DNA of 64,000 bases from Flavobacterium sp. WV_118_3 (GTDB lineage: Bacteria; Bacteroidota; Bacteroidia; Flavobacteriales; Flavobacteriaceae), in NCBI RefSeq assembly GCF_039778605.1, contig NZ_CP156060.1:1860001-1924000 (forward strand), read 5' to 3'. Of the stretch, positions 32,654 to 62,998 are shown piece after piece (position 1 is the stretch's first letter; every line of letters begins with the position of its first letter). The notes beneath the pieces were generated by a model. The model did no database searches. It worked only from the letters and a program-made list of their open reading frames with translations, and was not told the origin of the DNA. The translations under genes and the position numbers were made by a program.

Positions 32654-32741
32654 GGAGAAATGGCAGAGTGGTCGATTGCGGCAGTCTTGAAAACTGTTGA
32701 CTGTAACAGGTCCGGGGGTTCGAATCCCTCTTTCTCCGCCA
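32654..32741 (+). tRNA. tRNA-Ser (anticodon UGA)
   Basis: 88 bases including an encoded CCA. Acceptor GGAGAAA (32654) pairs with TTTCTCC (32731-32737), discriminator G. The anticodon arm CAGTC-TTGAAAA-CTG reads anticodon TGA (Ser, UCA codons), there is a long variable arm, and the T arm is GGGGGTTCGAATCCCTC. The 3' end and terminator start are repeated at 39228 (see direct repeat). Confidence 0.97.
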
Positions 32742-32759
32742 CTTTTAAAAAGCCCTGAT
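32736..32759. repeat. 24-bp direct repeat, copy 1, at the tRNA-Ser 3' end (possible att site)
   Basis: CCGCCACTTTTAAAAAGCCC plus TGAT; covers the last six tRNA bases and the first half of the terminator. Identical to 39228-39251. Such tRNA-end repeats mark integration of islands, but part of the match is a common terminator stem. Confidence 0.55.
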
Positions 32760-32782
32760 AAAAAATTATCAGGGCTTTTTTT
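32747..32782 (+). terminator. Terminator of tRNA-Ser
   Basis: 15-bp perfect stem AAAAAGCCCTGATAA (32747-32761) and TTATCAGGGCTTTTT (32766-32780), four-base loop, T tail. Confidence 0.92.
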
Positions 32783-33009
32783 ATGCTTAATTTTATCTTT
32801 CTTCGCAGGCACAGATTAAAAATCCGCGCTATTGAGCATCTTAATTCCAGACAGAAAAAAACCTGTCTACTTACATTAAAAGTAAACAGGCATCAATTTT
32901 TACTACAAGCTAAGCCCACGCGTTCCGAGTTAAGGGCTTAAAAGATCGGTTTGTTTAACAAGCGGACATCTGGCCGTTTACAGGAACCAGGTAAACTTCC
33001 TAAGAAATT
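32783..33009. other. Gene-free spacer with several stem-loops
   Basis: No convincing coding frame. It contains GACAG…CTGTC and CCTGTCTACTT…AAGTAAACAGG stems near 32855-32891, and TAAGCCC (32911-32917) pairing with GGGCTTA (32934-32940). These may end transcription from the minus-strand gene at 33010 or be a small structured RNA; I cannot decide. Confidence 0.4.
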
Positions 33010-33621
33010 CTAAGGTTGTTTTGTTAAAATGTATTCGCCGTATGGGACACGCATTTCATCGATTGCTCCTGTAGGAACTGATATAGATGCTCCATTTTTA
33101 TAGATTTTTGCTTTTATCTTTGCTATTCCATTTTCATTACTATATCGCAATACGATAGCATTATCAAGATAATCTCTGATAGGATCAGTTATATGAAGTT
33201 TTATCCTTTTTTCATTTATAGAACATTCCGAGCATTGTGGAAAAAAACCTCTATTTATGATCAGGTTCCCTTCGATAGTATTGATTTCATTTTCACCAAG
33301 TTGCTGGTTTATTCTTTCTAAAGTATTTACAATTTCGGTTCCATTAGCCACATAACGATATTCACCAACTAAAAGATCTTCATAATAACCTCCCGTCGAA
33401 TAATAACTATGCACTATCTTTTTAAAGATGATTTCTAAAGAAGTATTTCCCTGTTGAAATTTCCAAACACCGACAAATTTGTCAAGGTCGTTATCTACGT
33501 CCTTATTGTAAGTTCCACTTTTATACTTTAACGGATTATTACCTCCTGCAATTGGAATTATAGTTTGCGCCTTACATGAGAAAAGGGCAAATAAAGCAAG
33601 CGTTATGATAATATATCTCAT
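33010..33621 (-). CDS. DUF6705-like lipoprotein
   Basis: 203 residues. Short signal with LFSCKAQ lipobox (Cys16). Contains NKDVDNDLDKFVGVWKF and ends in DEMRVPYGEYILTKQP, the same ending as its neighbour at 33663; the pair is clearly duplicated. CPQCSEC-like Cys pair (FFPQCSEC) in the middle is also present in all copies. Third gene of the minus-strand module after the JAMM-like lipoprotein and the other DUF6705-like gene. Confidence 0.78.
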   Translation of the reverse strand: MRYIIITLALFALFSCKAQTIIPIAGGNNPLKYKSGTYNKDVDNDLDKFVGVWKFQQGNTSLEIIFKKIVHSYYSTGGYYEDLLVGEYRYVANGTEIVNTLERINQQLGENEINTIEGNLIINRGFFPQCSECSINEKRIKLHITDPIRDYLDNAIVLRYSNENGIAKIKAKIYKNGASISVPTGAIDEMRVPYGEYILTKQP

Positions 33622-33662
33622 AGTTGTATTTAGTTGCAGTTCATTTTATAAAAACTGTCTAA

Positions 33663-34277
33663 TTACGGTTGCTTAGTCAAAATGTATTCTCCATAAGGGA
33701 CACGCATTTCATCAATTGCTCCTGCGGGAATGAATACGGATGCACCACTTTTATAAATTTTTGCAATTATTTTTTGCGTACCGTTTTCAATTTTATAACG
33801 AAGTACCAAAGAATTATCTAAGTAATCTCTTTCTGGGTCATCTATAAAAAGAATAACTCTCTTTTCATCTAATGAACAATCTGCACAAATAGGGTGAATT
33901 CCTCTGTGGACAATTCTATTCCCATATATGTCATACGCTCCCGTAGAGGTTTGAGGCACATTAAGTTTATCCAATGTATTGATTAATTCTGTGCCATTTA
34001 CACTATAAGCATACTCACCTATTAACAGGTCTTCGTAATAATTTTTATCCGGAAAATAATCAAAATTTTTCTTTTTTAATTTAATGATCAGAGTTTTATT
34101 TCCTTCTTGATACTTCCACGTCCCTTCGTATTTACCAAATTCATTATCCACATCTTTAGTATAAGTGTTAGGTTTGTGATACGCTTCACTATGACTATCG
34201 GCTAATGGTACTATGGTTTGTGCCTTACATGAAAAAATGATAAAGACAGTTAAAAGAGATAATAAGATATTTTTCAT
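33663..34277 (-). CDS. DUF6705-like lipoprotein
   Basis: 204 residues. Signal with IFSCKAQT lipobox (Cys17). KDVDNEFGKYEGTWKY, ICADCSLDEKR, and the C-terminal GAIDEMRVPYGEYILTKQP nearly identical to the gene at 33010. The variable middle differs (YPDKNYYEDLLIGEYAY versus YYEDLLVGEYRY). It lies 11 bp after the JAMM-like lipoprotein gene, as in the other module at 3554-5650. The role is unknown; tandem duplication suggests diversification. Confidence 0.8.
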   Translation of the reverse strand: MKNILLSLLTVFIIFSCKAQTIVPLADSHSEAYHKPNTYTKDVDNEFGKYEGTWKYQEGNKTLIIKLKKKNFDYFPDKNYYEDLLIGEYAYSVNGTELINTLDKLNVPQTSTGAYDIYGNRIVHRGIHPICADCSLDEKRVILFIDDPERDYLDNSLVLRYKIENGTQKIIAKIYKSGASVFIPAGAIDEMRVPYGEYILTKQP

Positions 34278-34288
34278 GTCAATTAATA

Positions 34289-35785
34289 TTAATTACAGTT
34301 AACTTCATTTATTGGGATATTAGTTTTTGTGGATGGATCTGTATTGAGTACCAATTTAGTCCATTTTGTCAAATTGTCATCTGCTTTATACAAAGAGATT
34401 GCTAAATTATTCTCATTTAGAAAGTCTAATAAGTTTTTTTGGTAATCCGATGGATAACCATTCGGTAGCAAAGTATTTTTGTCTGCGTATTTATCATACC
34501 TTTTTTGAATCTCATTTATGAATTTTCTACGCTTATCCTTGTCACTGTATATTTCTTGTAGTTTCTGAATGGCACTTTGATTATCCATGCATAGAGCATA
34601 TACGCCTTGATAAGAGACTAAAAGATGTACAGGTATTTTTGGATCGGGAGTCCCCTGATTAGCGCTATAATTATATTGTGCATAGAATTTTGATAAAATA
34701 AATACATCCGCATGCGAAAACATAGGAGCATGCACATTTCTATGAGAATGTAGTCCTCCAAACAAAATTGGAGAAGTAGAAGAATAATTCACATAGCTAT
34801 CGCCTGTGTTTCCTTCAGGTACTTCTACAAGAGAAAGTTTTCCCTGTGCGTTTAAAAGAAGGTTATATCCCAGCTCTCGATTACCTGTCAATACCTGAGG
34901 GCTTCTTAAATTTGTTATTGCCGCTTTAAAATTGAAACTTTTCAATAACTCATTCAGTTTATCACAATGCAAAGGAGGTTCAATCCAGTCTTCAACAGGT
35001 ACCGTTATGATATTTGGGCAACGTGGACAATTACCAGGAGGATTAGAATTCCCTCCACTTGGATCTTCATCACCGCCACCGCCATTACCGCTTTGCCCTC
35101 CGGTATTATTACCTCCGGTGTATTGACCTGCTCCGGCACCAAAACTTCCACCTCCGCCAACAACGTCGCAGGTTGTGGATGTAACACTATACAAAAAATC
35201 AGAGTTATTACAATTAACTCCGCGAACGTGTTCCACTCCAACCGTATTGCCACTATTCGCCTCATTACACATCATTACTGTGGCCGTATGGCAAACAATA
35301 TCCTTACTCATTTGGGAAACGTTATAATTGATAGGCGTTAGCTTAATGGCTCCCTTAAATACAAACGAACCGTGAGCACCTGAATGTAAAGGTTCACTTG
35401 GTGTGTACTTTAAAATATAAGCACTGGGTTGTCCTATGCTATCTACATTGATAACAAGGTTTTCAAAATAATCAGGATTATTGATTTCTCTTGTAATCTT
35501 AAAGGTATAGGAAGTCTTAGTACCATCTTCTATCACCTTTGCGCCATGCGGTACGATGTTAAAATTGTACTGAGCTTCCATAACTGTACGGGATTTATCC
35601 CGGTTCGCATAAACTTTATTATAGGCTGTAGCAAACTTGCTTTCACCAAGTAATTTATCCAATGATGTTTCTCTAATCTTGATTTTAGCCGCATAGTTTT
35701 CGTTGCGAACAACTTCCTCGTTCAGCTCGCAGCCTGTGAGCATCACCAGGATCATAAAAATCCATACTTTAAAAATAGTTTTCAT
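34289..35785 (-). CDS. Large lipoprotein with C-terminal JAMM-like (HxH-x8-SxxD) domain
   Basis: 498 residues, paralogue of the protein at 4157-5650. Lipobox LTGCELN (Cys19). FKITREINNPDYFENLVINVDS and YILKYTPSEPL in the N-domain are shared. A Gly-rich linker (about 215-255) ends in NCPRCPNIITVPVEDW. Near the C-terminus GLHSHRNVHAPMFSHADVF gives H346, H348, S357 and D360, a spacing of eight between His and Ser, one more than the classical JAMM motif. The tail ends in Cys as in the paralogue. Heads a three-gene unit with two DUF6705-like genes. Confidence 0.75.
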   Translation of the reverse strand: MKTIFKVWIFMILVMLTGCELNEEVVRNENYAAKIKIRETSLDKLLGESKFATAYNKVYANRDKSRTVMEAQYNFNIVPHGAKVIEDGTKTSYTFKITREINNPDYFENLVINVDSIGQPSAYILKYTPSEPLHSGAHGSFVFKGAIKLTPINYNVSQMSKDIVCHTATVMMCNEANSGNTVGVEHVRGVNCNNSDFLYSVTSTTCDVVGGGGSFGAGAGQYTGGNNTGGQSGNGGGGDEDPSGGNSNPPGNCPRCPNIITVPVEDWIEPPLHCDKLNELLKSFNFKAAITNLRSPQVLTGNRELGYNLLLNAQGKLSLVEVPEGNTGDSYVNYSSTSPILFGGLHSHRNVHAPMFSHADVFILSKFYAQYNYSANQGTPDPKIPVHLLVSYQGVYALCMDNQSAIQKLQEIYSDKDKRRKFINEIQKRYDKYADKNTLLPNGYPSDYQKNLLDFLNENNLAISLYKADDNLTKWTKLVLNTDPSTKTNIPINEVNCN

Positions 35786-36400
35786 AATTGTTATTAAAAT
35801 GCGTGTGCAAATATTAGCTTCTCAATATCAATCCAATTACGGTTTTCCCGTAGTTAAGACATTTTGTGCCAAATTGCAGTATAAACACGTATAATCATTG
35901 GGGTACTTTTCTTACAGTAAGTGTTCGTGTGACTTAGAATGTTACAGTTAATTATGCTTTGAGTTCAAGCGAGACTGATCTTACAATTGTTAGAGGTAAT
36001 CCTTTTTGATCAATTAATGAAATTATGGAAGTGTTATATTCCTAACAGACAGAAAAAGATTCTTTCCTAATTATTGATTATAAATAGTTCTTTTTTTTCA
36101 CCCGTTACAGAATGAGTATGAAATATATAAATGTACTTATTTATTTGTATGTATCAACGCACAAATGTTTCAAAATTACTTTGTCTTATTTAAGCAGGGT
36201 ATTGATTTACAATTAGATAATTTACAGAGAATACTTTTTGATCCTCTCTGATTTTTGAAAACTGCATTTCCTTTATATTTTATTACGATCAGATTTGGTT
36301 TTAGTTCTCTTTATATAAAGCAGTCTGCTTTTAAAATATGCCCCATTTATAGAAGATTAGTAAAATAGATTTCTATCAACGTTTTTTTTAATATGAAATT
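35786..36400. other. A/T-rich intergenic DNA, no gene
   Basis: About 600 bases with frequent stops in all frames. TAAACACGTATAAT near 35880 resembles the ACACGTATTG motif of the dispersed element. Nothing else recognisable. The base composition is lower in G+C than the flanking housekeeping genes, as expected for acquired DNA. Confidence 0.5.
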
Positions 36401-36524
36401 AAGTAAAAATACGTATTGCGTTATTATCTATAAATTACTTTCTTGCATATGTAGATACAGCTATATGCTTTTTTATTAAATAAATTGGCGAAGAATTCCG
36501 TAAAGAAAATGCTATAGGTAATAT
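36401..36524 (+). repeat. Dispersed upstream element, copy A
   Basis: Shares with copy B the blocks AGTAAAAATACGTATTG, AAATTACTTTCTT, ATACAGCTATATGC and TTTTTTATTAAA…TTCCGTAAAG, ending GCTATAGGTAATAT 10 bases before the ATG of the Mrr-like gene. The order and spacing of blocks are the same in A and B. Could be a promoter/leader or a mobile-cassette end. Confidence 0.6.
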
Positions 36525-36534
36525 CAAAACTTTA

Positions 36535-37059
36535 ATGAACAAAATTGACTTTTCAGAAATACAAGATTGGGAACAATTCGAAAACTTAGTTGCTGAGTAT
36601 TTCAATGAGACGCGTGATTTGGAAGATAATAATTTAACCGAAGTATTTGTTGAACCTGTTGGGAAAGGTCCTGACGGAGGAAGAGATATTTTGTTGACAT
36701 TCCGAATAAATGATTCAATACTCTCATTTGAAAGAAGATGGATTGTTCAATGTAAATTCTATGACATACTTAAAAAAAGTTCTCTCGATAGAATCAATAT
36801 TCCAACATTAATAGAAGAATATAGAGCAGATGGATATTTGTTAATCTGCAAGAACTCTGTTACGAATGGTGTTTCTACAACTTTTGAAAATTTGAGAAAT
36901 AATTGTAGGCGAAATTATAAATATGTGATTTGGAACGGTAGTACATTTGTTAAAAAATTATATAAAACAAATGGATTGCATGAGCATTATTTTCCAGATT
37001 TTTTCGATTATAAAATGCAAAGAGCAAAATTAACTGGTATCAACGACATATTGACATAA
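36535..37059 (+). CDS. Mrr-like restriction endonuclease-fold protein paired with TIR
   Basis: 174 residues, one PD-(D/E)xK nuclease domain. WEQFENLVAEYF is the first Mrr helix; GKGPDGGRDI supplies Asp51 and VQCKF supplies the Gln72-x-Lys74 catalytic pair; IPTLIEEYRADGYLLICKN is the following core strand. No separate DNA-recognition domain and no methyltransferase nearby, so it is not a classical restriction system. The stop overlaps the TIR start by one base (TAATG), so the two are translationally coupled. Probably a defence effector or sensor acting with TIR (inference). Confidence 0.8.
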   Translation: MNKIDFSEIQDWEQFENLVAEYFNETRDLEDNNLTEVFVEPVGKGPDGGRDILLTFRINDSILSFERRWIVQCKFYDILKKSSLDRINIPTLIEEYRADGYLLICKNSVTNGVSTTFENLRNNCRRNYKYVIWNGSTFVKKLYKTNGLHEHYFPDFFDYKMQRAKLTGINDILT

Positions 37060-37541
37060 TGAAAAAAACAGCATTCATATCACACTCGATGGACGATAGC
37101 GAATTATATGTATTGTCTTTGATAACAGAATACTTGGCCAACAATGGATATTTTATTGAAACGAGTCATAATAATTCCATATTTCCAGGACAAAACATAG
37201 AATATAACATACAAACCCAAATCAATAAATCCGATTTATTTATTGGCATTGCTTCTCATTTTGGTATCAATTCACAATGGGTACTGAAAGAATGGGAATT
37301 AGCCCAAAAAAATGGAAAAACAGCATTTTTTTTGATAGAAGACAATTTACCAATAAATCCAGCTTTTGAACAAGGTAACTTGGTTGTCAGATTTAATAGA
37401 CAAAATCCACAGTATAGCATTACTCGTCTCCATTCAATGATTGAGAAAAGAAAAAAAGAAAAATCGAATAATGCTTTAAATTGGGTAGTAGGAGGATTAT
37501 TAGGGATTGCGATTATAAAGTTATTATCAGAAGACGATTAA
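37059..37541 (+). CDS. TIR-domain protein with C-terminal membrane helix
   Basis: 160 residues. TIR fold over about 1-125: strand KTAFISHSMDDSE, INKSDLFIGIAS, and QWVLKEWELA with Glu78 at the position of the NADase catalytic Glu. After a charged linker (RKKEK, about 132-138) a short hydrophobic helix LNWVVGGLLGIAIIKLL (about 142-158) suggests membrane attachment. Bacterial TIR proteins cleave NAD+ during antiphage defence or make signalling nucleotides. Coupled to the nuclease-like gene. Confidence 0.82.
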   Translation: MKKTAFISHSMDDSELYVLSLITEYLANNGYFIETSHNNSIFPGQNIEYNIQTQINKSDLFIGIASHFGINSQWVLKEWELAQKNGKTAFFLIEDNLPINPAFEQGNLVVRFNRQNPQYSITRLHSMIEKRKKEKSNNALNWVVGGLLGIAIIKLLSEDD

Positions 37542-37680
37542 AGCATATTGGATATCCAAACAAAAACTGAAACTTAAGTTAAGATACATTCTTGTGATTG
37601 GTTCACTTTTTATGCGGTTCAACTGAAAACTTTTCTTTTTTTATTAAGAATTATATTTCGATACTTTAGCTTACAAATTA

Positions 37681-37807
37681 GGTAAAAACACGGATTGATT
37701 TGTCATGTCTAAATTACTTTCTTATAGATCTAAGAAATACAGCTATATAGCTTTTTTACGAAATAAATAAGGAAAAAGTTTCGTAAAAAACAATGTTAGT
37801 GGCAATA
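37681..37807 (+). repeat. Dispersed upstream element, copy B
   Basis: GGTAAAAACACGGATTG, AAATTACTTTCTT, the palindrome AGCTATATAGCT (37741-37752), then the perfect 12-bp inverted repeat TTTTTTACGAAA (37752-37763) / TTTCGTAAAAAA (37779-37790), then AATGTTAGTGGCAATAT. It ends 27 bases before the ATG of the next gene. Best-preserved copy. Confidence 0.65.
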
Positions 37808-37833
37808 TTTCACACAGCCTTAAAAAAAATAAT

Positions 37834-38334
37834 ATGAAAAAAGACAACTTTTACGAAGTTAAAAAAATAGACTATAATTGGACACCAATAAAACTATTAG
37901 ATACACAAAAAAATGTTAGTACAATTGAAATTCTAAAAAATAATCAGATAATTAAAACTACAGGTGCAATTTTTAGAGAAATCTCAATTTCAAAAATACA
38001 TTTAGAAAGAATTGGTTTTGAAAATGATAGCCTAAATGATGTATTTGCAGTTCCAATCTACATGATTCTTGGTGAAGATTTAATGAATCTTACATCTGCT
38101 TATTTCGGATATCTAATATTTCACAAAGATGAAATTGTTAACATTCAGAAAACATACAATTCTGTGCTTACAGAAGTATATGAAACTTTTAAAACAAATC
38201 CAGAAATTATTTCCGACAGCGACAATGTTATTAAACAAAAGTTTAACAGCATATTTAATGTCAATGATCTTTTCAAAAGACTAGCAGAATACAACATAAT
38301 TGTTGAAAATAAATCTGAAATATTGATTGGATAA
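37834..38334 (+). CDS. Hypothetical protein in the accessory region
   Basis: 166 residues, predicted cytoplasmic, A/T-rich codon use. It starts MKKDNFYEVKKIDYNWTPIK and has a helical C-terminal third (NVIKQKFNSIFNVNDLFKRLAEYNI). I recognise no family. It lies between dispersed element B and the first attC-like hairpin, so it has the layout of a gene cassette. Confidence 0.65.
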   Translation: MKKDNFYEVKKIDYNWTPIKLLDTQKNVSTIEILKNNQIIKTTGAIFREISISKIHLERIGFENDSLNDVFAVPIYMILGEDLMNLTSAYFGYLIFHKDEIVNIQKTYNSVLTEVYETFKTNPEIISDSDNVIKQKFNSIFNVNDLFKRLAEYNIIVENKSEILIG

Positions 38335-38341
38335 ATACTGC

Positions 38342-38474
38342 TACTAACAACGGTTTTAAGAAATTGGGGTTTAGGGTAAAATTTAAAGGTATTTTATATA
38401 TTTGGTCTCAGTTCCTAATGGAATGGCTTCGGAACAAAAATCCCCAACTCCACAAAGCCGGCGGGACGTTAGCT
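38342..38474. other. attC-like long hairpin 1 between two small genes
   Basis: Begins TACTAACAACGG seven bases after the stop of the upstream gene and ends GGGACGTTAGCT just before the next gene. TTGGGG (about 38361) pairs with CCCCAA (about 38441), and the outer CTAAC pairs with GTTAG. Length 133 and position between gene stop and next start fit integron attC recombination sites (RYYYAAC…GTTRRRY), though the core bases are only near-consensus. Confidence 0.5.
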
Positions 38475-38482
38475 GTAACCTT

Positions 38483-38950
38483 ATGAATGACTGCGAAAAA
38501 ATGGACGAAAATATATATCACCAAATACAATACGATCGAATCGATAATTTAGAAACTAGGAGAGAAAATTTCAGCAACTATGTTTTAACTATTTGTACAG
38601 GGGTATTAGGAATTACTCTAGCAAATCCTAACTCTTTAGATTCTATATCCATATTCTTTATTTTTTTATTTGGCTTTGCAATTAATATAATTTCAATTTT
38701 ATTTATAAAAAGCACTATGCCATTTATAAGGATGCATCAAATAAGAGCAGATGAAATTAGGAAACAATACGATTTAAAACTTTCAACAATTAATGATTTG
38801 ATAATAAAACCTAGCCCAAAAATTACTATTAGAAAAAAGGATTATGAATTCAAACGTCACAACATCTATATTTGTTTACACTGGGTTATAATATTATTTT
38901 TTGCTGTGGTCACAATTCATTCTTTGTTAATCCCAAAAGATATTAATTAA
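38483..38950 (+). CDS. Two-TM protein of a cassette-like unit
   Basis: 155 residues from the ATG at 38483, nine bases after the attC-like end; the frame reads further upstream only through the hairpin. N-terminal helix IQYDRIDNLETRRENFSNYVL, two adjacent membrane helices (about 36-75), a polar middle (IRADEIRKQYDLKLSTINDLI) and a last hydrophobic helix (HWVIILFFAVVTIHSLLI). A layout with helix-TM-TM-helix-TM resembles SLATT-type or other membrane effectors of bacterial defence, but I cannot assign a family. Confidence 0.6.
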   Translation: MNDCEKMDENIYHQIQYDRIDNLETRRENFSNYVLTICTGVLGITLANPNSLDSISIFFIFLFGFAINIISILFIKSTMPFIRMHQIRADEIRKQYDLKLSTINDLIIKPSPKITIRKKDYEFKRHNIYICLHWVIILFFAVVTIHSLLIPKDIN

Positions 38951-39270: not shown

Positions 39271-39876
39271 CTATTTTACGATACTTTGCGATTTTCTTCT
39301 CCGGTGAACAAAACTACTCTTCTATTTTTATTACATTTTCTATTTCAATGCTTTAGTTCTAAATTACGTAAAAACACGTATTGTTTTACTACAATCAAAA
39401 ATGTATAGCTTGTTTTACAAAAACGTACATATGCTAATAATTTTGCGAATTCAGATCGTTTCTCATCTGTATTGGTTTCGAGGTATCCTACTAGTACCGA
39501 TATAACGACTAAGTTTATCCCCCCTTTTAATACAGTTAATTAATTCATCATTCTTTAATCGAATGGGCGCAACAATTATTACACTAAGAATGTTTATTGT
39601 AATTAACCAGTGAAAGTTATTTCATTTTGTATTATAAAGGTGTTACACAAAAATCTTGTTCCTGCGTTTCGCACTCTTATGGATAAAAAACGAATGCTTA
39701 TGGTTTTTTCTCAACGTACACGATTACAACACCATACTTTTACTAAAGAAATTAAAATGCTAGCTAGGTTTATTTTTCACTCATTTATTTAAAAGTGGAG
39801 TTCAGAAACCACTATAAAAACGGGGAGAAATCCGAAAAGCCTTATGAGTAGGAATAATCAATAAATTTTAGAAATC
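39271..39876. other. Spacer with a copy of the ACACGTATTG motif; no gene
   Basis: Copy C of the dispersed element is limited to its first block: GTAAAAACACGTATTGTTTTAC at 39368-39389, where GTAAAA and TTTTAC form an inverted repeat. A 60-codon GTG-started frame at 39610-39792 looks random and is not called. The rest (39390-39876) holds the presumed promoter and leader of the AidA/PixA-type gene but no box that I can name. Confidence 0.5.
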
Positions 39877-47520: not shown

Positions 47521-47650
47521 TTGATTATAAAGCTAACACATTAGGTTTTCACAAAGAAACAGTATATTCGTCAGAGATAACTTCGTTTGTTTTTCTACAA
47601 AATAAAAGGAGTAAAATTTCGTAAAAAACAATACTAGTAGCAATTATAAT
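47521..47650 (+). repeat. Dispersed upstream element, copy D (diverged)
   Basis: Keeps the last part of the element: TTTTTCTACAAAATAAAAGGAG, then TTTCGTAAAAAACAAT and ACTAGTAGCAATTAT, which parallels AATGTTAGTGGCAATAT in copy B. It ends 16 bases before the ATG at 47667. The left half is not well preserved. Confidence 0.5.
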
Positions 47651-60136: not shown

Positions 60137-61156
60137 TTATCCGTTTGCAAGGATCATTTTATGGATCTCAAAATGGACTCGTTCCATAATCCACTCTTTT
60201 TCGTCGGATGCTAAATCGTTTAAAAGATCGTTGTTGTTTTCATTAAAATCGACGATTACATCTTCTAAAAACTCGGTTTTGATGTCGGCAACCCGAAGGG
60301 GATTCGTCCGATCCAACGTACCGATTTTAGAAATCGCACTTTGCAATCGGTTTTGCGTAATATAGTTCCGCAATTCCGTTACGATAAACGATAAATCTTC
60401 TGTCCGCGAGGAAACATTGGGTACAAACGACCATTTTTCGGCCTCGTGGAATTTCTCCTCCTCGTCAAATTCGGGATTCTTTACTTTTACGATCGGTCGC
60501 CTATTCTGATCCACTTGGTTATACGGTTTGATCACCACGCCTTCGATTAGATTGTCTTGTAGTTCCGGAAGTTGCAAGGCTTTCGGAATCGTCGAGTTGA
60601 TCCGGATAGTAAAATTCATGGCTTCGGCAAATTTTCCGATCAGTAAGGGTTTGGCATAAAAGATCCCAAACTGTTCAAAATAGGCCACGGCAGTTTCATA
60701 ATCCAGATAATATTTCGATCCGGATTCGTTTTCGATGGCAATATCAAAAGCACAAAATGCAATTTCAGGCGTATAATATACTCCGGTCTGAATCGCTTGT
60801 AAATCGGCTATAGGATCAACTTCCGGATGCGGATATTTCCCACCAAACAATTCGCCGTACACCATATATTTTTCTCCGGCTATAGCACCACTGAGCTGTT
60901 CAAACAGGCGCAATATGTTGTTTTCCAATTTATTTACAACCAATTGAAACCCAAAAAAGTCATCATTCCATTGGAGGTAGTCTTTTCGTTTCGCAAACCG
61001 AAGCGTACCGTTTTCATAGCTAAAACTAAAATTCGCACCGTGTACTTTTTCGGTCACAACCCATTTTAATTTTTCCATTTCGGAAAAATCTTTTTCACTT
61101 AAACCTAGCTTTTTTGGACTATTGGGCATTTTTTCATAGCCCGAAAATTCACTCAT
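60137..61156 (-). CDS. Rnl2-family RNA ligase
   Basis: 339 residues from the ATG at 61154-61156 (MSEFSGYEKMP); an upstream TTG is less likely. Nucleophile motif TEKVHGANFSF with Lys37, motif III-like YGELFGG, and IEGVVIKPYN for motif IV/V: the nucleotidyltransferase fold of T4 Rnl2-type ligases that seal RNA nicks. Bacterial copies are thought to repair RNA, for instance after nuclease attack, which fits this defence-rich neighbourhood. No RNA 3'-phosphatase or polynucleotide kinase is next to it. Confidence 0.85.
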   Translation of the reverse strand: MSEFSGYEKMPNSPKKLGLSEKDFSEMEKLKWVVTEKVHGANFSFSYENGTLRFAKRKDYLQWNDDFFGFQLVVNKLENNILRLFEQLSGAIAGEKYMVYGELFGGKYPHPEVDPIADLQAIQTGVYYTPEIAFCAFDIAIENESGSKYYLDYETAVAYFEQFGIFYAKPLLIGKFAEAMNFTIRINSTIPKALQLPELQDNLIEGVVIKPYNQVDQNRRPIVKVKNPEFDEEEKFHEAEKWSFVPNVSSRTEDLSFIVTELRNYITQNRLQSAISKIGTLDRTNPLRVADIKTEFLEDVIVDFNENNNDLLNDLASDEKEWIMERVHFEIHKMILANG

Positions 61157-61333
61157 CGTTTTTATTTTTTTGCTAATACGTTGCAAATTAGCAACCTTGC
61201 ACCACTTTAGCGTTACTATTTACAAATATATCGGAAATATTTGAAAGAAAAATCGGAACATTAAAACTGTACTACTTTATTTTTTTCTTACAACCTATAA
61301 TTCAATACTTTAAAATTCTGTAAGGTAAAAATT

Positions 61334-61462
61334 AAGTAAAAACACGTATTGTTTTGTTAGGAGGAAATGAGTTTCTTTCGAATTGCGGGATAGGGTTATA
61401 TAATTTATTCTTTAAATAAATATGTAGACCATTTTCTAAAGAACAATCTTGTAAGCAATTTT
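61334..61462 (+). repeat. Dispersed upstream element, copy E
   Basis: AAGTAAAAACACGTATTGTTTTG at the left, TTTCTTTCGAATTG and ATTCTTTAAATAAAT in the middle, and AACAATCTTGTAAGCAATTTT at the end, 13 bases before the ATG at 61475. The left block equals copies A and C; the right inverted repeat is worn. 61157-61333 holds nothing else recognised. Confidence 0.55.
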
Positions 61463-61474
61463 AAAGACCAAGAC

Positions 61475-62998
61475 ATGCTAATTGACGAAATACTATCAAA
61501 GTTTATAGGGACAGAATCTAAAACTTATTATTCCTTCGAGACCTTTATTTTAAACCTACTAAAATATCATTTAGAGCAACAGCAAAAAGTTCTGGTTATA
61601 AATAATGACAACCTTCGCACACTTGGCGATGCAATAGCAGAAGATGGCCTTGATGATATTATAGGCAAAACTATAGTAGAAATTAAACTAAACTTAGACA
61701 GAACACCTCCAAAAATTTTTGTAGATCAATTTTTTAGTCGATTTAATAGAACAGAAGTTTCTCCAGATTTTAAAAATATTTTGATAATTAATGGACGTCC
61801 TATCTCCCGTGAAACAAAAGAAAGGATTCTTATAGAATTAAACTTCTTATCTCCACAGTTTAGAATAATACTTTGGGGACCTGAAGAACTCAATAAAATT
61901 GTTACAAAACATAAAAAAGAAGCAAACAAAATTGCAAATAATCTATTTGCGTTGAGGCTTGAAAATATTGTAAGTGGTGAAGTTCGTAATTGGGAAGATG
62001 AAAGAGAGGAAAGAATTGAATTATTAATTGACGTATATAAAAAAAGACAGTTTTCTGCCTTTCTTGGCGCAGGTGTTTCTAGTAGTGCAGGAATGCCAGA
62101 CTGGAACACTTTACTTAATTCACTTTTTGTCTCATATTTAGCAAAGGAATTCAAACATTCTGAAGCCATAAACGATAATGATATAAAACAAATTGTACAC
62201 CGATTAAATTATGTTGACGAACCTTCAGCTTTAATGGCTGCAAGATATTTAAGAAAGGGATTGACAAAAGAACAATCGGAAAGCCAAGCATTTATTAATA
62301 CTATTTCTGATAATTTATATAAGTTACGAGATTCCAAAAAAGATATTAGCTCAAAACTAATTAAGGCTATTACAAATCTTTGTATGCCAACACAAACTGG
62401 AGCAAGAGTTAAATCTGTTATCACATACAACTTTGATGACTTACTAGAGAGAGAATTAGAGACAAAAGCAATTCGTCACCATAGTATTTACAAAGAAAAT
62501 GAACTTTCTGACCCTGATGAATTACCGATTTATCACGTTCATGGTTTTTTACCCGAAGACAAATCAAAATATACAGGATTAGAGGAAATCACATTAGTTT
62601 TTTCAGAAGAAGGTTACCATCAAATATACTCGGATGCTTACCACTGGTCAAATTTGGTTCAACTCTATAATTTACGTGAGAATAGTTGTTTAATGATTGG
62701 ACTTTCATTGACAGATCCAAATCTTCGTAGACTTCTTGAGATTTCTGCGCGCAATAGTGAGCGACCAAGACATTTTGCATTTATGAAAAGACTTACTATT
62801 GAGGAATTTTGCTATGAAAAAGAGAAGAATGGTACAGAGAAGAAACAAGTAATTAACAACAAAAAAGCTGCTGAACAATTCTTAAATGGACACCATAAGT
62901 TGAATGAAGAATTAATGAAGGAACTTGGAGTTTTAATAATATGGTATACTTCTTATGATGATATTCCGACTATATTAACAAAAGTGAATAATGAATAG
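61475..62998 (+). CDS. SIR2-domain protein with N-terminal nuclease-like domain
   Basis: 507 residues. Residues about 10-160 form a restriction-endonuclease-like region with DAIAEDGLDDIIGKTIVEIK (acidic pair and E-x-K of the PD-(D/E)xK fold). Residues about 190-460 are a SIR2/NADase domain: FLGAGVSSSAGMPDW (NAD loop), ITYNFDDLLE, YHVHGFLP (catalytic His) and CLMIGLSLTDPNLRRLL. SIR2 effectors of antiphage systems (ThsA, DSR types) deplete NAD+. A nuclease-SIR2 fusion is one of the defence designs. Copy E of the dispersed element lies upstream. Confidence 0.85.
   Translation: MLIDEILSKFIGTESKTYYSFETFILNLLKYHLEQQQKVLVINNDNLRTLGDAIAEDGLDDIIGKTIVEIKLNLDRTPPKIFVDQFFSRFNRTEVSPDFKNILIINGRPISRETKERILIELNFLSPQFRIILWGPEELNKIVTKHKKEANKIANNLFALRLENIVSGEVRNWEDEREERIELLIDVYKKRQFSAFLGAGVSSSAGMPDWNTLLNSLFVSYLAKEFKHSEAINDNDIKQIVHRLNYVDEPSALMAARYLRKGLTKEQSESQAFINTISDNLYKLRDSKKDISSKLIKAITNLCMPTQTGARVKSVITYNFDDLLERELETKAIRHHSIYKENELSDPDELPIYHVHGFLPEDKSKYTGLEEITLVFSEEGYHQIYSDAYHWSNLVQLYNLRENSCLMIGLSLTDPNLRRLLEISARNSERPRHFAFMKRLTIEEFCYEKEKNGTEKKQVINNKKAAEQFLNGHHKLNEELMKELGVLIIWYTSYDDIPTILTKVNNE

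Follow-up and report, generated by a model that had tools for sequence, protein, structure and literature searches.

An Mrr-type nuclease gene conserved beside a TIR gene: a candidate two-gene defence module in Flavobacterium

What might be the function of two short, overlapping genes, the one encoding a nuclease and the other a TIR-domain protein, in the genome of Flavobacterium sp. WV_118_3 (single contig, 3.85 Mb)? They lie in the 64,000-nucleotide (nt) stretch analysed here (hereafter the window; assembly GCF_039778605.1, NZ_CP156060.1, positions 1,860,001 to 1,924,000), both on the plus strand: the first (36535..37059) encodes an Mrr-type PD-(D/E)xK nuclease of 174 amino acids (one Pfam domain; D47, D51, Q72 and K74), and the second (37059..37541) a TIR protein of 160 amino acids (E78; C-terminal hydrophobic helix at residues 139-157). 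The stop codon of the nuclease gene (TAA, 37057-37059) and the ATG of the TIR gene (37059-37061) have one base in common (TAATG, 37057..37061, plus strand), which suggests that the two are translationally coupled. An earlier interpretation made from the letters of this DNA (the sequence-only reading) had described both open reading frames (ORFs), the one-base overlap and the residues D51, Q72, K74 and E78, all of which were confirmed, coordinates included, and had taken the pair for a candidate defence system. We consider it highly probable that the pair constitutes a two-gene defence module; the support for such a role comes from genomic context, and the mechanism set out below is one that we infer.

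Relatives were sought with nuclease queries only, so that the TIR gene had no role in the choice of loci. Six paired relatives were recovered: L003 in genome G263 (from 397 genomes of the family), L031 in G851 (from 395 of the order), L035 in G1256 (from 395 of the class), L007 (Hyunsoonleella pacifica) and L008 (a Saprospiraceae metagenome-assembled genome) from the genome_contigs set, and L024 (an IMG/VR contig) from viral contigs. All six carry a TIR-type ORF of 153-159 amino acids directly downstream of the nuclease gene, in the same order and on the same strand. The sequence-only reading had made its proposal depend on the two genes being more than rarely adjacent in other genomes, and, though the family is rare, they are neighbours in 7/7 loci (window included). 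Stop and start overlap in six of the seven (by 1 nt in the window and by 4 nt in five relatives); in L008 the genes are separated by 33 nt. The seven loci support the pair as a real two-gene unit.

Matches to the nuclease (own genome included in each count) were found in 5/397 genomes at the rank of family (two of them pairs), 2/395 at order (both pairs), 3/395 at class (two pairs) and 2/395 at phylum (one pair), counts that are not independent since the genome samples of different ranks overlap. In a local search the nuclease profile placed the seven paired nucleases at 232-262 bits and seven other Mrr relatives (L004, L005, L006, L027, L028, L029 and L036) at 24-60 bits, a gap that is partly by construction since the profiles were built from the seven pairs. 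The TIR profile had no match beside any of these seven other relatives (stretches of 1.5-8.4 kb). Across 199 family genomes its best match was the copy in the window (204 bits), the next ones scoring 31 and 28. Searches of mobile elements with the window nuclease returned one plasmid record (a distant Mrr protein of ~300 amino acids, no TIR annotated in the stretch) and one phage record (1.5 kb; likewise a distant Mrr protein of ~300 amino acids, no TIR annotated); the L035 nuclease gave one weak plasmid record and no phage match, and the L003 TIR protein matched neither plasmids nor phages. Five of the seven scans of viral_contigs (two of which used L024's own proteins) led to the single L024 contig, the other two giving L025 (judged unrelated) and nothing, respectively. 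As a side observation, the distant Mrr relative of phage P2-EC67 (L028, 210-1121; AJ512685.1, a 1.5-kb record with no TIR) lies between inverted repeats in the Z region, its annotation being that of a putative lysogenic conversion protein.

All seven paired nucleases match Pfam Mrr_cat (PF04471) at 0.01, the window copy with an E-value of 7.9e-6 (26.4 bits, cut-off 21), and in their alignment D47, G49, D51, C73 and K74 are invariant; the identity of the six relatives to the window copy is 32-55% (for L008 and L035 the start of the nuclease is our own assignment and uncertain). Residue 72 is Q in six loci and E in L031, the canonical PD-(D/E)xK alternative, the invariance being as expected of that fold. 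No second Pfam domain was detected in the window nuclease (E up to 1), and beyond the catalytic domain its predicted structure shows just a short helical C-terminus; a separate DNA-recognition domain, as in Mrr-type type IV restriction endonucleases, was found neither by Pfam nor in the structure model. PDB sequences gave no match to the nuclease profile at 0.1.

The window TIR protein matches Pfam TIR_2 (7.2e-10, 39.8 bits, cut-off 28), and the best Foldseek matches of its predicted fold are TIR-APAZ chains of the short prokaryotic Argonaute TIR-APAZ (SPARTA) system (1.3e-5). Identity to the window copy among the six relatives is 25-39%, and F6, S8, D13, V75, E78, A82, E94, R114, P117 and G146 are invariant across the seven loci. 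E78, at what we take to be the catalytic position of TIR NADases, aligns to a Glu of PDB 9m0n, in the TIR at the N-terminus of that structure. A C-terminal hydrophobic stretch is clear in six of the seven proteins (mean hydropathy 1.80-2.56 over 19 residues) and is followed by 2-8 residues; in the window protein it starts at residue 139, spans 19 residues (mean hydropathy 1.80) and leaves 3 at the C-terminus, and this helix may cross a membrane. Neither window protein gave anything above cut-off in NCBIfam or a named match in PHROGs.

The surroundings of the relatives include defence islands and a phage. In G851 (L034) the pair begins 8 nt after a Res gene (2.2e-197) that accompanies a type III methyltransferase (6.5e-179), and in G1256 (L037) it is flanked by type I R (5.4e-36), S (3.5e-86) and M (9e-197) genes; G263 (L022) carries a cyclase (1.9e-132) and a 2TM effector (5.8e-93) of a cyclic-oligonucleotide-based anti-phage signalling system (CBASS), 7.2 kb off on the other strand, and the L024 viral contig, with the pair at its end, encodes a Terminase_3 protein. 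In contrast to the two relatives that sit among restriction-modification genes, the window had neither methyltransferase nor helicase near the pair, as the sequence-only reading had claimed, in a Pfam scan of 25 of the 75 window ORFs of at least 100 amino acids (the 25 including the pair, and one, 38402-38950, being taken from an internal start). Instead of being an independent defence system, the pair might be auxiliary to restriction-modification or resemble a selfish toxin-antitoxin pair, given that at two loci it lies within or directly behind restriction-modification genes. We regard this as improbable: in the window, the phage contig, L007 and L008, no methyltransferase neighbours the pair among the proteins scanned or ORFs read, and in our judgement both proteins look enzymatic and neither antitoxin-like. 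A possible third component in G1256 is a PDDEXK_4 nuclease gene (L037, 8839-9888), which has a 4-nt overlap with the end of the TIR gene and is followed by a HEC-05-like gene (4.7e-30).

The GC content of the pair is 30.3% (vs 37.1% for the window), and that of the three bins at 36-39 kb is 27-28% (vs 32-43% for the other 13 bins of 30-46 kb); because of these low values the pair looks acquired in the window genome. We propose that it represents a rare, horizontally spread two-component anti-phage module, in which translational coupling would fix the ratio of nuclease to TIR protein and the two would probably act as a complex; the kept active-site residues of the nuclease, its lack of a second domain and its co-translation with a hydrophobic-tailed TIR protein make a complex the simplest reading. 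The Mrr-type protein, with a catalytic domain whose predicted active site is complete, would engage DNA, and, as no second domain is recognised in it, its specificity would come from the state of the DNA (ends, modification and replication structures being candidates) or from its partner. The TIR protein would be the effector that consumes nicotinamide adenine dinucleotide (NAD+), anchored at the inner membrane through its C-terminal helix: once phage DNA is engaged, cut or not, the TIR domains would assemble, NAD+ would be depleted and the infected cell stopped. That DNA engagement triggers the TIR within the complex is most simply envisaged after SPARTA and Nezha, by analogy and not by membership. 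The whole chain (module, complex, DNA trigger, NAD+ loss at the membrane and abortive outcome) is put forward tentatively, as it seems slightly more apt to fail at some link than to hold throughout. More doubtful still is the proposal that the recognition-less Mrr nuclease senses for, or licenses, a TIR NADase anchored by its tail. The pair would then be an undescribed immune complex whose NAD+ destruction at the membrane is activated directly by the engagement of DNA, with no part for a guide, a messenger or a receptor of the STAND type (signal transduction ATPases with numerous domains).

Several observations weigh against this explanation. The GC content of the pair is close to that of its own locus in all six relatives, and in a mirror-tree test (a weak one, on seven near-equidistant sequences) the nuclease and TIR distances were uncorrelated (r 0.17, reached by 1613/5040 permutations), which lends no support to co-evolution of the two. 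The CBASS link in G263 is loose, L007 and L008 are without a known defence gene among the ORFs inspected by reading alone, and the tallies of known defence genes near the pair (3/7) and of phage contigs (1/7) come without a base rate for such neighbours. Furthermore, L008 combines a weak TIR tail (hydropathy 1.03) with the 33-nt gap between the genes. Finally, the glutamate alone cannot prove NADase activity, and the TIR fold is common to nucleotide N-glycosidases; an alternative that builds on this fold, in which cutting of modified phage DNA by the nuclease would free nucleotides whose bases the TIR-fold protein then strips off (like DNPH1 or MilB), appears to us very improbable.

A defence role for the pair may also be viewed against a repeat that precedes it. 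One copy of this leader repeat (36396..36524, plus strand) ends 10 nt before the nuclease ATG and is 75% identical (E 1.9e-17) to a second (37629..37833, plus strand), which lies beyond the pair and immediately before the gene 37834-38334. At E 0.001 the genome holds 10 full or partial copies, six with lengths of 129-205 nt and four with lengths of 40-72 nt, further ones being present in the window at 39316-39387, 47591-47644 and 61276-61450, and elsewhere (G000:C1) at 787835, 791977, 798257, 815481 and, on the minus strand, 2652819. Most stand just upstream of accessory genes: copies sit 24 nt before a SIR2_2 gene and 235 nt before a TIR_2 gene, and another precedes a gene run that has GmrSD_N as its fourth ORF, 1.7 kb away. 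Four of the ten precede defence-type genes (the other downstream genes being scanned in part), an arrangement that fits the defence reading of the pair. A search of 15 further genomes of the genus gave no copy at 1e-8 (candidates partly scored). The repeat may serve as a mobile promoter or as a site for a shared regulator, or it may mark the border of an insertion. Rfam gave one match on 36200-37900, under the gathering score; promoter-like sites numbered 12 (vs 10.2 in shuffles) and terminator-like sites 0 (vs 0.5).

Other features of the window were recorded alongside. A 3.4-kb block (32736-36140), in which a large lipoprotein-like gene accompanies two of DUF6705 type (one gene Pfam-scanned), has a 76% identical paralogue at G000:C1 794815-798170, and both blocks lie within ~260 nt of a leader repeat copy, which suggests duplicated variable spots. 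The SIR2_2 protein (61475-62998, 507 amino acids) shows weak sequence similarity to the NADases ThsA (0.0024) and KomC (0.0051) and is a second defence candidate of the window; a nuclease-like N-terminus suspected in it by eye found no support in profile comparison. Beside its gene, on the minus strand (60137-61186), is encoded an RNA ligase whose C-terminal domain is of the T4 Rnl2 type. A membrane-type protein encoded two genes beyond the pair (38444-38950), with weak similarity to 8xMP (2e-5, 24.8 bits, under the cut-off of 30) and PycTM (0.0061), is possibly another defence effector. A 131-nt imperfect, attC-like palindrome (38343-38473) lies between the genes 37834-38334 and 38402-38950 and runs into the listed start of the latter; an integron cassette was rejected, the attC-like end motif being unenriched (28 sites with at most one mismatch vs 51 in the control reading), and no integron integrase over the integron cut-off was detected in the genome.

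Bacterial immunity often employs Mrr-type nucleases and TIR NADases as effector domains; to our knowledge, such effectors are usually paired with a dedicated sensor (a STAND ATPase, an Argonaute or a ligand domain). The present pair is minimal (334 residues), has no visible sensor, is kept in at least three bacterial families and also occurs in a phage. Should the pair work by itself, it would be a very small immune circuit joining DNA attack and NAD+ loss, as well as a clean model for how a TIR gets triggered.

Among known systems, Thoeris resembles the pair in that it is a defence unit of two genes, one of which encodes a small TIR protein standing alone, and its ThsB models are the best PADLOC matches of the window TIR (5.7e-7). 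The main rival to our explanation is a Thoeris-like, reversed order in which the membrane TIR would sense and make an ADP-ribose-type messenger and the Mrr-type nuclease would be the DNA-cutting effector. We judge it unlikely, as a ligand domain of the CARF, SLOG or Macro kind would hardly fit into the 174-residue nuclease, as ThsB models match just one of the seven TIR members at 0.01 (leaving six unmatched), and as no ThsA-type effector (SIR2-SLOG, Macro-TM or similar) was present in a Pfam scan of seven window neighbours. Moreover, where Thoeris has a ThsA effector and its ligand-binding domain, the partner here is an Mrr-type nuclease, and the TIR carries a C-terminal hydrophobic helix. 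Both this order and the one we favour, where DNA engagement by the nuclease would trigger the TIR protein, predict a defence phenotype; they differ in the NAD+ product and in which of the two active sites acts as executioner.

The PADLOC candidate PDC-M58 is approached through its first component, PDC-M58A, which matches 7/7 nucleases (best 5.4e-10), but its second, PDC-M58B (PDLC04716, 165 positions), has no match among the seven TIR proteins. PDC-M58B was likewise without a match in the window genome at 0.001 or 0.01 (controls silent in one of these searches, two controls giving a signal in the other); it matches 21/198 phylum genomes (0.01), nearly all in open frames of more than 300 amino acids, and three matches inspected by eye were beta-propeller-like. 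The assignment of the pair to PDC-M58 was thus rejected, the second component being a different protein.

SPARTA joins a nucleic-acid-handling partner to a TIR, and it is its TIR-APAZ chains that the predicted TIR fold matches best; the partner here is instead a nuclease keeping its active-site residues, the TIR has a C-terminal hydrophobic helix, and neither of the two proteins nor the seven window neighbours showed a Pfam match to Argonaute or APAZ. Nezha (SIR2 with HerA) offers an NADase in complex with a DNA-acting protein (PMC11559045, in its available portions), whereas in the pair TIR replaces SIR2 and a nuclease replaces HerA. The available portions of PMC9122126 report a phage-borne defence in the P2-like phage AC1, comprising a TIR gene plus transmembrane proteins, and differing from the pair in its three genes with separate transmembrane proteins and in that no Mrr-type nuclease is mentioned there; they also report STAND proteins with Mrr_cat in place of the N-terminal TIR, a different arrangement. 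With the Mrr-type type IV enzymes (and AspBHI and MspJI) the nuclease shares its catalytic domain family and predicted fold, and departs from them in having no second Pfam domain and a TIR gene next to it in all loci. PADLOC 2.0 held no fitting system for the pair, and no description of it was met in the literature searched (most preprints left out) or in the available portions of PMC9503650, PMC9122126, PMC8195603, PMC7159879 and PMC11559045. The view that the pairing is unlike the classical systems hence stands against PADLOC 2.0 and this literature, other catalogues (DefenseFinder included) lying outside the comparison; what is new here is the conservation of the nuclease-TIR pairing across distant bacteria and a phage.
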